DNA of 45,753 nucleotides, taken from positions 1 through 45,753 of the forward strand of contig JADGEJ010000030.1 in NCBI GenBank assembly GCA_016744435.1, written 5' to 3'. The DNA is from Lentibacter sp. GTDB lineage: Bacteria > Pseudomonadota > Alphaproteobacteria > Rhodobacterales > Rhodobacteraceae. Of the stretch, positions 21,282 to 24,556 are shown piece after piece (the first letter of the stretch is position 1; each line of letters opens with the position of its first letter). The notes below the pieces were generated by a model, which saw only the letters and a program-made list of their open reading frames with translations, did not search any database and was not told where the DNA came from. The translations under genes and the position numbers were made by a program.

Positions 21282-21932
21282 TTAGCCTGCAAACGGAGCC
21301 GCACTTCCCCAGAGAGCTTTCACTTTCTTGTCGCGCCCACAGGCCTTGCGATAAAACTTATACGCGGCCGCCTTGCTCTTCGGTCCGGCCCGCGTCAGCA
21401 CCACCTTGCTGCTCTTGTAGTAATCCTGATGGTAGGCTTCCGCCGCGTAAAACCCCTTCAGCGGCAAAACCTTGGTGACAATCTTGCGCCCCAAGTCCTT
21501 GCCCGCTTCCGCTACGGCCTTCTGAGCCGAAGCTTTCTGCGCAGCGCCTTTATAAAACAACGCCGTTTTATAGGCCGAGCCCCTGTCACAAAACTGCCCG
21601 CCCGGGTCCGTCGGGTCAATCGAGCGCATAAACATGTTCAGCACTTTATCGCGGCTGATCTTCCCTGCATCAAAAGTGATCTTCACCACCTCATAGTGCC
21701 CCGCGTGGCTCTTGTATGTCGGGTTGGTCGACTTGCCGCCACTAAAGCCCGAAACCGCGCTGATAACGCCGGGAACGCTCTCAAAGTCTTTCTCGACACA
21801 CCAAAAGCAGCCGCCCGCGACAACAAGTTCTTCACGCGGCCCCGCATGGGCCAACCCCGCCTGCAGCAGAACGGCCAATCCGATCAGCACGCCCAATACC
21901 CAGGCTTTCGTTTCTCTCACACAGCACATCAT
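21282..21932 (-). CDS. msrA: exported peptide-methionine (S)-S-oxide reductase
   Basis: A 216-residue MsrA that reduces the S-form of methionine sulfoxide in oxidised proteins. The catalytic motif is GCFWCVEKDFE near residue 41, followed by SGFSGGKSTNPTYKSHAGHYE. SIDPTDPGGQFCDRGSAY (near 108) carries a further Cys that may resolve the disulfide. Unlike the usual cytosolic enzyme, it has a signal peptide (WVLGVLIGLAVLLQAGLAHA, residues 10-29), so it probably acts in the periplasm. The start is ATG at 21932, eight nucleotides after AAGGAG; GTG at 21935 is possible. No MsrB or MsrPQ gene is adjacent. Confidence 0.92.
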   Translation of the reverse strand: MMCCVRETKAWVLGVLIGLAVLLQAGLAHAGPREELVVAGGCFWCVEKDFESVPGVISAVSGFSGGKSTNPTYKSHAGHYEVVKITFDAGKISRDKVLNMFMRSIDPTDPGGQFCDRGSAYKTALFYKGAAQKASAQKAVAEAGKDLGRKIVTKVLPLKGFYAAEAYHQDYYKSSKVVLTRAGPKSKAAAYKFYRKACGRDKKVKALWGSAAPFAG

Positions 21933-22041
21933 CACGCGTTCTCCTTCATTTCGCTTGGCTCCACCCTAGCGCCATAAAACTCGCCTGTAGACAGGCCTCA
22001 CAGAGAGGTTACTACTCGTTCCCAAAACGTGAGGAGCCGAC

Positions 22042-22947
22042 ATGTCTGACAAAATCACAACCCACGCCGCCGAAGAAGACGCGCGCAATGAGAAAATCCT
22101 GATCTGGCTTAATGGCCGCTGTGTTCCCAAGGCCGAGGCACTGGTGAGCGTTTATGACAGCGGCTTTATGCTTGGCGACGGTGTTTGGGAAGGTCTGCGC
22201 CTTTACAACGGCAACTGGGCCTTCTGGAGCGAGCACTTTGACAGGCTTTTTGAGGCCGCAAAGGCGATTGATCTCAACATTGGCATGACCAAAGAACAGC
22301 TCTTTTCCGCCTTGTTAGAGACACAAACAGCGAATGAGATGACAACAGATGCGCATGCGCGCCTTATGGTCACGCGCGGTGTCAAAACACGCCCGTTCCA
22401 ACACCCCTCGCTCAGCCAGCAAGGCCCTACAGTGACCATCATAATGGAGCACTCTCAGCCGAAAATCCCACGTCCTATCAAGCTGGCGACAGTGCCACAC
22501 ATCCGCGGTTTGCCGATGACGCAAGACCCGAAGCTAAACTCGCATTCCAAGCTTAACTGCATCCTCGCCTGCATCGCCGCCGAGAAAGCAGGCGCTGACG
22601 AGGCCTTGATGCTTGATGTGCATGGCTTTGTGAACACCACCAACGCCTGCAACTTTTTCATCGTCCGCAAAGGCGCCGTTTGGACAAGCACAGGCGACTA
22701 TTGCATGAACGGCATCACCCGCCAGAAAGTGATAGATGTTTGCCGCGCTGACGGCATCCCGATTTTTGAGCGCAACTATTCTCTGGTTGACACCTACGGC
22801 GCTGACGAGGCCTTCCTCACAGGCACATTCGGCGCGCAAACTCCGGTGAGCGAGATAGATGGCCGCGCAATTGGCGAAGGCGAAATGGGGCCAATCACCC
22901 TGCGCATCCGCACTCTCTACAAAGAGCTGATCGAGGCCAGCACATGA
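22042..22947 (+). CDS. class IV aminotransferase-like protein (BCAT/D-AAT fold), atypical
   Basis: A 301-residue protein of the class IV PLP aminotransferase fold. Landmarks are WLNGRCVPKAEALVSVYDSG, the PLP lysine in NSHSKLNCILA (Lys170) and TGTFGAQTPVSEIDGR near 256. Against BCAT, D-amino-acid aminotransferase and ADC lyase, the segment V-x-E-x4-N-x-F that gives the PLP-N1 glutamate reads VNTTNACNFF here, with Thr199 at the Glu position. That argues for altered chemistry or substrate. It begins after GAGGAG at ATG 22042 and overlaps the sulfotransferase-like gene by 4 nt. Plants have BCAT-like proteins that, as I recall, fuse such a domain to a P-loop domain. It is not a safe call for branched-chain transamination. 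Confidence 0.8.
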   Translation: MSDKITTHAAEEDARNEKILIWLNGRCVPKAEALVSVYDSGFMLGDGVWEGLRLYNGNWAFWSEHFDRLFEAAKAIDLNIGMTKEQLFSALLETQTANEMTTDAHARLMVTRGVKTRPFQHPSLSQQGPTVTIIMEHSQPKIPRPIKLATVPHIRGLPMTQDPKLNSHSKLNCILACIAAEKAGADEALMLDVHGFVNTTNACNFFIVRKGAVWTSTGDYCMNGITRQKVIDVCRADGIPIFERNYSLVDTYGADEAFLTGTFGAQTPVSEIDGRAIGEGEMGPITLRIRTLYKELIEAST

Positions 22948-23660
22948 CTTCTATTGCCATGTGGTCAGGCCCGCGCAACCTCTCCACCGCGATGATGTAT
23001 GCTTTCGGCAATCGCGATGATTGCGCCGTGGTCGACGAACCGTTCTATGCGCACTACCTCGCCGAAACGGGCCTTGAGCACCCGATGCGCGAAGACGTGC
23101 TCGCCAGCCAGCCGCAAGACGCTGAATCAGTCGTTCAGTCTCTAACACAGCCCAAGTCTCAGCATTTCTACCAAAAGCATATGTGCCAACACATGCTGCC
23201 TTCAGTGCCGCGCGACTGGATGTTTGGCGTGCAAAACGTCTTCCTCATCCGCCACCCCGCCCGCGTTATTGCCAGCTTTGGGGCCAAGTATGAGGGCTTC
23301 GGGCTTGCCGACATCGGCTTTTCGCAACAGCTTGAGCTTTACAAAATGCTGCGTGCTGCCGGGCAAAACCCGCTGGTCATCGACAGTGCTGACATTCGCA
23401 ACAACCCCGCCGCCATGCTGCGCGCGCTCTGCGGCAAGCTCGACATCGCATTTGACGAGGCCATGTTGCACTGGCCCAAAGGCGGTCACGCCTCTGACGG
23501 CGCTTGGGCGCCGCACTGGTATAACGCGGTGCACGACTCCACAGGCTTTGCCGGCCCCGAAGGCCCGTTGCCCTCGTTAGACTCACCGCAGCAAAACGAA
23601 CTCCTCACCAGTGCCATGCCAATTTATGAGGCCCTTTCGACATGCAAACTGACAGCCTAA
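22944..23660 (+). CDS. sulfotransferase-like P-loop protein
   Basis: A 238-residue protein of the sulfotransferase superfamily. MWSGPRNLSTAMMYAFGNR (residues 6-24) corresponds to the 5'-phosphosulfate-binding loop, and VFLIRHPARVIASFGAKYEGF (near 99) to the 3'-phosphate-binding segment with Arg-His-Pro. The protein is short for a sulfotransferase, so both sulfonation by PAPS and another nucleotide-linked role are open. It begins by ATGA overlap with the atypical aminotransferase-like gene and overlaps the DUF3137 gene by 19 nt at its end. The tight coupling indicates a joint function. No signal peptide is present, so it is cytoplasmic. Confidence 0.78.
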   Translation: MTSIAMWSGPRNLSTAMMYAFGNRDDCAVVDEPFYAHYLAETGLEHPMREDVLASQPQDAESVVQSLTQPKSQHFYQKHMCQHMLPSVPRDWMFGVQNVFLIRHPARVIASFGAKYEGFGLADIGFSQQLELYKMLRAAGQNPLVIDSADIRNNPAAMLRALCGKLDIAFDEAMLHWPKGGHASDGAWAPHWYNAVHDSTGFAGPEGPLPSLDSPQQNELLTSAMPIYEALSTCKLTA

Positions 23661-24556
23661 CTAACGACTTTTCCGCCGCCGTAGAGGCGATCACCGCCCA
23701 GAAAATGCGTTTCAAACTTGAGTTGGGTTTGGGGGCAGTTGTTATGATCATCATCTACTTTTGGATGATCAACGCCAAATTCGACGGCTTCACTTTCTAC
23801 GTGATCCCCGCCTTAGGCCTGTGTGGCCTCTATGTTTTGCAAATGAAACGATACAAAAAACACAGCGCTGACCAGATCATGCCCTTGCTTTGCGGAGCCA
23901 TCGACGGCCTCAGATACAACGGCCTTCAAACGCCGAGCTTGTCTCACCATGAAAAAACCATGTTGCTTCCAAAGGGCCACTTCAGCGGAGAGGGCATCAG
24001 CATTTCCGGAAGCTTCGGCGACCAAAGATTTCGGCAAAGCAACATCATTCTTCAGGAAAGACGTGGCAAGTCTACGGTGACAACCTTCCAAGGTGTTTTG
24101 CTTGCACTCCCAGCGCTTGGCATCGAGCCCACACTGCTTGTGCGCCCCTCCGACCAAGGGCGCGGAGCAATCAGCACTTGGATCTTCGGCTCTGATGATC
24201 CGATGCCCGCTCAAGCCCCGCTTGGCAGGCTCTCGAGCTTCGGCGAACACCTCACCCTCTTTGCGCCTGACGATTCAGCCCTTGCCGAGTTCGCCCCGAA
24301 GCTCAAAAGCTTGATCAAACAGTCTGACGCCGTGTTCACAGACAGCGCAACAATCGACGCTGTTTTGACCACTCAAAGCAGCACCCTCATCGCGATTGCT
24401 GACGGCTCTCTGCCCTTCGCAATTGGTGGCATTTTCCAGTCAAAGGCAGCGCTCGCCCACGACATTGAGCGCGCATCAGGCGAATTGAGCTTGCCCATCA
24501 AGCTGATGCAACTTTGGTCGCAAGGCCTGAGCGGAATAGCATATGAGCTGAATTAA
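23642..24556 (+). CDS. DUF3137-like membrane protein
   Basis: A 304-residue protein with two membrane segments near the N-terminus (about 27-45 and 51-68), then a long cytoplasmic or periplasmic domain of about 230 residues. It resembles DUF3137: FKGVLLALP-like segments (here TTFQGVLLALPALG near 147) and a paired FGSDDP/LFAPDD region near 178-205. Function is unknown. The ATG at 23642 lies within the sulfotransferase-like gene and overlaps it by 19 nt, so it is translated as part of the same unit. The DUF assignment is from memory of the general pattern and should be taken as moderate. Confidence 0.6.
   Translation: MQTDSLTNDFSAAVEAITAQKMRFKLELGLGAVVMIIIYFWMINAKFDGFTFYVIPALGLCGLYVLQMKRYKKHSADQIMPLLCGAIDGLRYNGLQTPSLSHHEKTMLLPKGHFSGEGISISGSFGDQRFRQSNIILQERRGKSTVTTFQGVLLALPALGIEPTLLVRPSDQGRGAISTWIFGSDDPMPAQAPLGRLSSFGEHLTLFAPDDSALAEFAPKLKSLIKQSDAVFTDSATIDAVLTTQSSTLIAIADGSLPFAIGGIFQSKAALAHDIERASGELSLPIKLMQLWSQGLSGIAYELN

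Follow-up and report, generated by a model that had tools for sequence, protein, structure and literature searches.

A class IV aminotransferase-like protein lacking the PLP lysine, and its sulfotransferase-like partner, in Lentibacter sp. and related bacteria

Gene pair in Lentibacter sp.

The window analysed is a stretch of 45,753 nucleotides from Lentibacter sp. (Rhodobacteraceae), contig JADGEJ010000030.1. Two consecutive open reading frames on its forward strand are the subject of this work. The first (positions 22,042 to 22,947) encodes a class IV-fold, aminotransferase-like protein of 301 amino acids (Pfam Aminotran_4, 133 bits), and the second (22,944 to 23,660) encodes a sulfotransferase-like protein of 238 amino acids, with a Sulfotransfer_5 (PF19798) match of 308 bits versus a curated cut-off of 23.2. 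The two genes share an ATGA overlap (22,944 to 22,947, forward strand). An earlier, sequence-only reading had described the second gene as a P-loop sulfotransferase relative overlapping the class IV frame in this way, and the reading frame coordinates and the Pfam matches agree with it.

The class IV fold of the first protein was recognised by both Pfam and its Foldseek hits, and the 19 NCBIfam models that matched it all scored under their curated cut-offs. Three further class IV genes were found in the Lentibacter genome, each keeping the Lys and the Glu of the family, and a profile search gave no second Sulfotransfer_5 match elsewhere in this genome.

An msrA-like gene (21,282 to 21,935, reverse strand) lies divergent from the pair, and msrA-like homologs were present in 53 of 80 related loci, these being the best 80 of at least 584 relatives. 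Downstream, a 304-aa frame without a Pfam match (23,642 to 24,556, forward strand) overlaps the 3' end of the sulfotransferase gene. It was rejected as a third operon member, with no homolog in the same 80 loci. Across the Rhodobacteraceae the whole region is syntenic, and mutS-, argG-, malic enzyme- and msrA-like genes recur.

The former PLP site of the class IV protein

Codons 166 to 170 (Asn-Ser-His-Ser-Lys; 22,537 to 22,551, forward strand) occupy the former PLP-lysine site and form the signature of what we call the Lys-less family, and codons 199 to 201 (Thr-Thr-Asn; 22,636 to 22,644, forward strand) occupy the site of the former PLP-N1 Glu, both as placed by alignment and conservation. 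In phmmer alignments to the BCAT chains 5mqz and 5cm0, the BCAT stretch NIKSLNYL lies over KLNSHSKL with its lysine opposite Asn166 and without a gap at that point, and the Glu of V-x-E-x4-N-x-F lies opposite Thr199. Lys170 stands four residues after Asn166, in a column that holds Tyr in 10 and Leu in 12 of 22 canonical class IV proteins.

These 22 proteins (20 from the Rhodobacteraceae, one from genome G267 and one from an Alkalihalophilus plasmid) all carry Glu in the column of residue 199, and 21 carry Lys in the column of residue 166. The exception (L002) has its Lys two residues further on, and all 22 have a lysine within the stretch. In the joint alignment, all 129 distinct members of the Lys-less family have Asn at 166 and Thr or Ser at 199. 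The same holds for the larger set of 143 distinct relatives, where the former lysine position is Asn and the former N1 Glu position is Thr or Ser in every case. The sequence-only reading was thus right that Thr199 stands in place of the PLP-N1 Glu, and no other Glu was found to occupy this position. Its assignment of Lys170 as the PLP lysine was wrong; the catalytic position is that of Asn166, equivalent to the residue altered in the Variovorax mutant N174K described below, and Lys170 is ruled out in this role by the BCAT alignments together with the Arg found at this place in 16 of the 143 relatives.

Conservation around the two sites is strict. Asn166, His168, Ser169 and Asn201 were kept in 143 of 143 relatives, of which the most distant is 44% identical to the window protein. 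Residue 170 varies together with residue 199, with Lys170 and Thr199 in 127 sequences, Arg170 and Ser199 in 16, and zero exceptions. Altogether 42 columns are invariant across the 143 sequences, including the polar residues Asn166, His168 and Asn201 in the former motif stretches. The residues of the PLP phosphate cup, namely Arg68, Thr226 (each 143 of 143) and Thr262 (141 Thr and two Ser), are also kept, as are Arg107 and Arg112 (each 143 of 143); the phosphate-cup roles of the Arg/Thr/Thr set and the role of a substrate-carboxylate arginine are presumed here from BCAT. The predicted structure of the first protein is of moderate quality (mean pLDDT 80, with residues 156 to 168 below 50), and therefore the pocket was judged from sequence alone.

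By alignment, the window protein cannot act as the usual Schiff-base PLP aminotransferase, because the lysine is Asn and the N1 Glu is Thr or Ser. Judged by the aligned positions, the phosphate cup is kept and the lysine and the N1 acid are lost. BCAT, D-amino-acid aminotransferase and ADC lyase (fold type IV, PF01063) share their fold, cup residues and overall sequence with the window protein, whereas the Lys-less family is without the PLP lysine and the N1 Glu throughout. Copies at the loci L115 to L122 and L229 to L233 bear public labels such as aminotransferase class IV, D-amino acid aminotransferase or BCAT/ADC lyase despite the missing PLP lysine.

In a 74-row tree, the Lys-less proteins fell on one side of a branch and the 22 canonical proteins on the other, with a support of 100/99. 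For this tree 15 paired rows were drawn at random from those more than 75% identical and three rows at contig edges were dropped; the tree program flagged long canonical branches that meet. The Arg170-type rows form one clade, so that the Arg170/Ser199 type may have arisen in a single event. The strictness of the changes at both sites speaks for selection rather than decay.

The best Foldseek hits of the first protein were 7z79 and 9j32 ('mutant N174K'). The closest solved structure is 7z79, deposited as "aminotransferase-like protein from Variovorax paradoxus" and about 47% identical to the window protein. Like the latter, the Variovorax homolog has Asn at the PLP-lysine site (N174, corresponding to Asn166), but it has Arg four residues past this Asn and Ser at the N1 Glu site, where the window protein has Lys and Thr. 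Since the mutant N174K was made, the structure group had evidently noticed the Asn. No publication on 7z79 was found among the open-licence PMC matches listed.

Sulfotransferase partner and coupling of the two genes

The partner carries the motifs of PAPS enzymes, namely a WSGPRNLST loop, a DEPFY motif with an invariant Glu32 and a 3'-phosphate-type motif, RHPARVIAS; we take the 5' loop and the 3'-phosphate motif as generally understood for such enzymes, the 5' loop being assigned from the sequence motif. Among 114 distinct sequences, Arg11, Thr15, Asp31, Glu32, Lys78, Arg103 and Ser111 are invariant, and Ser14 is kept in 113. The predicted structure is of high quality (mean pLDDT 92). Its best Foldseek matches were tyrosylprotein sulfotransferase-2 (TPST2) with PAP and the sulfotransferase domains of olefin synthase and CurM, at E-values of about 3e-6 to 1e-5 and modest TM-scores of about 0.4 to 0.6. 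In a profile search the same two domains matched at about 1e-6, with an alignment that covers the R-P-S stretch; a single-sequence search gave no solved relative. The partner thus has its predicted fold and its 3'-phosphate-type motif in common with the PAPS sulfotransferases CurM and TPST2, but its sequence similarity to solved sulfotransferases is low. We infer from motifs and predicted fold that it is probably a PAPS-type sulfotransferase, and Glu32 may be its catalytic base by likeness to Stf0 and TPST, which we take as the models here. No member of Sulfotransfer_5 with an assigned substrate was found in the literature searched. At one locus (L071), an internal stop lies within the sulfotransferase match.

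APS kinase was found in 36 of 37 genomes with the sulfotransferase. This gives no real support for PAPS supply, because the base rate is 358 of 398 genomes and one genome with the pair (G032, locus L156) has zero APS kinase matches; this genome would have either another source of PAPS or another donor.

The sulfotransferase gene lies beside the first gene in 77 of the best 80 loci of at least 584 relatives, a sample biased toward the paired clade because the loci were picked as the best by match. In the other three, the contig ends 340 bases or less past the first gene. In 72 of the 77 loci, the start of the sulfotransferase match falls in a span from 60 bases ahead of the end of the first gene to 100 bases beyond it. 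About 700 bases separate the two genes at three loci from Roseovarius and Thalassobacter (L038, L061 and L089).

Two genome surveys were carried out, in which a strong sulfotransferase match was defined by E < 1e-50 and E < 1e-40, respectively. Among 398 Pseudomonadota genomes, 37 had a strong Sulfotransfer_5 match and 41 had a Lys-less protein, and all 37 were within the 41; the four with the Lys-less protein alone were G222, G247, G280 and G334. Weaker, second-kind Sulfotransfer_5 matches in G067, G226, G344 and G319 were set aside, among them that of G344 (1.5e-16), a genome without a Lys-less protein. Among 149 Rhodobacteraceae genomes, one per genus, 101 had both genes (71 adjacent, 30 apart), 43 had neither and four had the first protein alone (G411, G470, G474 and G501; 4 of 105), of which G470 is incomplete, with its Lys-less gene about 540 bases from a contig end. 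A single genome of the 149 (G475, locus L221; 99% complete) had the sulfotransferase and no Lys-less protein. The sulfotransferase was thus found without a Lys-less protein in 1 of 102 genomes of the genus survey and, by strong matches, in 0 of 37 of the wider survey. Fisher tests of co-occurrence gave tiny values that ignore relatedness, and all of these co-occurrence counts are inflated by shared ancestry.

Outside the Rhodobacteraceae, 14 distinct pairs were found in six other families. Of 14 such loci taken with wide flanks, the seven with a recognised motif had no further constant neighbour. By adjacency and by co-occurrence the pair is conserved among homologs, and the possibility raised with the sequence-only reading, that neighbours of homologs might not be conserved as a pair, did not hold. 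Strict conservation together with co-occurrence argues that the site changes and the pairing are not due to chance.

The same reading had likened the pair to a plant fusion of a P-loop domain with a BCAT-like domain. No fused class IV-sulfotransferase frame was found among the loci examined for one. At L097 (7,947 to 9,624), the frame of the first gene runs on for about 700 bases over the sulfotransferase gene, possibly through a frameshift or an assembly error; it was rejected as a fusion, the sulfotransferase lying in a different frame. For the Arabidopsis loci of the supposed plant fusion, nothing was found in the open-licence PMC literature. A survey of plant sulfotransferases has PF19798 among its profiles, and the word aminotransferase is absent from its main text (PMC12506393). 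Another paper met in this connection, PMC4867686, was a chance match.

In all nine genomes examined for this in which the two genes are apart, the first protein belonged to a separate clade and was 65 to 69% identical to that of the window. The same clade also holds plasmid copies and the copy of G339, the latter adjacent to a sulfotransferase gene. The msrA gene was retained at six of eight sulfotransferase loci from such genomes, as if a divergent copy had replaced the resident one. G484 has an Arg170-type copy next to an amino-acid ABC transporter, with its sulfotransferase gene on a separate contig. Divergent copies apparently can fill the same role, which suggests that the function of the protein, and not its position, is required.

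Contexts of solo copies and possible roles of the pair

Genes for polar amino-acid ABC importers lie beside 18 of 32 solo copies examined. All 12 solo Arg170 copies have them at a distance of about 5 kb or less; of the 20 solo Lys170 copies, six have them at about 6 kb or less, with none detected for the other 14. Other recurrent neighbours were MmgE/PrpD (6 of 32), CLC (5 of 32) and ProC-like (4 of 32) genes. At L118, L119, L198 and L230, the solo copy is followed by a CLC channel gene, and a ProC-like reductase gene is also present.

In Mameliella alba, the start of a choline-sulfatase-like gene overlaps the end of a solo Lys-less gene (L232). The plasmid region concerned (L232, 1,858 to 12,839) holds, in one direction, genes for an amino-acid ABC transporter, the Lys-less protein, a choline-sulfatase-like protein, a DHDPS-like protein and oxidoreductases, and this cluster looks catabolic. 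A weaker sulfatase match lies about 5 kb from the solo copy at L218. Together, the solo contexts suggest an amino-acid-like ligand. The sequence-only reading had proposed that the two proteins form an enzyme system, so far undescribed, for a small amino or sulfur compound; this may be so, and it agrees with the solo contexts (ABC importers, sulfatase).

The explanation that we favour, tentatively and at somewhat under even chances, is that the two proteins form a module whose common target is a single small amino-acid-like compound. In the class IV-fold protein, the cup would bind phosphate or sulfate as the anionic part of a carboxylated amino compound; the arginine aligned with the substrate-carboxylate position is kept. 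PLP would be absent, or present without a covalent bond. The sulfotransferase would sulfonate this compound, or else its direct precursor or product. Because solo copies are often found beside genes for polar amino-acid uptake, the ligand is probably imported or an internal amino-acid derivative.

The chief rival, which we consider possible and clearly less probable than the two-protein module, is that the first protein still works with PLP or PMP, holding the cofactor without a Schiff-base lysine and with His168 or Lys/Arg170 serving as the acid-base group. In its favour, the phosphate cup is retained, His168, two residues past the lost lysine, is invariant in all 143 relatives, and fold type II PLP enzymes usually have Thr or Ser near N1. 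A comparable case is ColD, the GDP-4-keto-6-deoxymannose 3-dehydratase of fold type I, in which His replaces the lysine; ColD-type enzymes, like the Lys-less family, have a PLP fold without the Schiff-base lysine. However, ColD keeps its N1 Asp, whereas the Lys-less family has a class IV fold and has lost the N1 acid. Moreover, the lysine, the N1 acid and the BCAT-type Tyr four residues past the lysine column are all replaced, and among the matches listed a D-amino acid aminotransferase with Ser in place of its N1 Glu occurs solely as a mutant (1g2w).

Alternatively, the first protein might be a pseudoenzyme that binds, senses or acts as a scaffold in partnership with the sulfotransferase and, in other settings, with amino-acid uptake; we regard this as unlikely. 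The loss of the catalytic residues of the parent family would agree with this, as would the near absence of strong sulfotransferase matches without a Lys-less protein in either survey. Against it, the 42 invariant columns seem to go beyond what mere binding needs, and the Lys-less protein occurs without the sulfotransferase in 4 of 41 and 4 of 105 genomes, the incomplete G470 among them.

A further and rather improbable possibility is that the sulfotransferase sulfates a hydroxyl on an amino or hydroxy acid so that it becomes a leaving group, and that the Lys-less protein eliminates or substitutes this sulfate without PLP while holding it in what was the PLP-phosphate cup. Among the partner's 50 listed structural matches are enzymes in which sulfate serves as a leaving group (CurM and olefin synthase domains, retinol dehydratase and LGS1); most of the 50 are ordinary sulfotransferases and P-loop kinases. 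These matches, the sulfatases at L232 and L218 and the CLC and ProC-like neighbours are hints in this direction. Nothing relevant on known serine O-sulfate degradation as a counterpart was found among the literature matches listed. If this possibility were true, the protein would be, to our knowledge, the first PLP-free catalyst on a class IV fold.

That Lys170 substitutes for the lost lysine in an ordinary aminotransferase is very unlikely. A basic residue does stand at position 170 in all 143 relatives, but in 16 of them, and in the Variovorax homolog, it is Arg, which is unable to form a Schiff base, and four of these 16 are paired with a sulfotransferase. Additionally, the N1 Glu is also lost, and the genome already has three other class IV genes with both residues. 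Finally, that the genes are neighbours by chance or merely share a promoter would agree with the synteny of the region across the Rhodobacteraceae, but it is hardly credible, as the pair recurs with different flanking genes in further families of the same class and of the phylum, and the genes co-occur even when apart.

No published account of the Lys-less family, the function of the partner or the pair was found among the open-licence PMC matches. The fold and the class of the partner are known; what is new is the undescribed and strongly coupled combination. The family is strictly conserved and carries an aminotransferase annotation, though both residues defining the PLP chemistry of its parents are gone, which makes it a clear natural example of a PLP fold turned to a different purpose, or of a different way of using PLP. 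In addition, the near-obligate sulfotransferase partner offers a direct handle for finding the substrate. Because both genes occur together in 101 of the 149 sampled genera of the Rhodobacteraceae, the compound may be widespread among these bacteria, which are largely marine.
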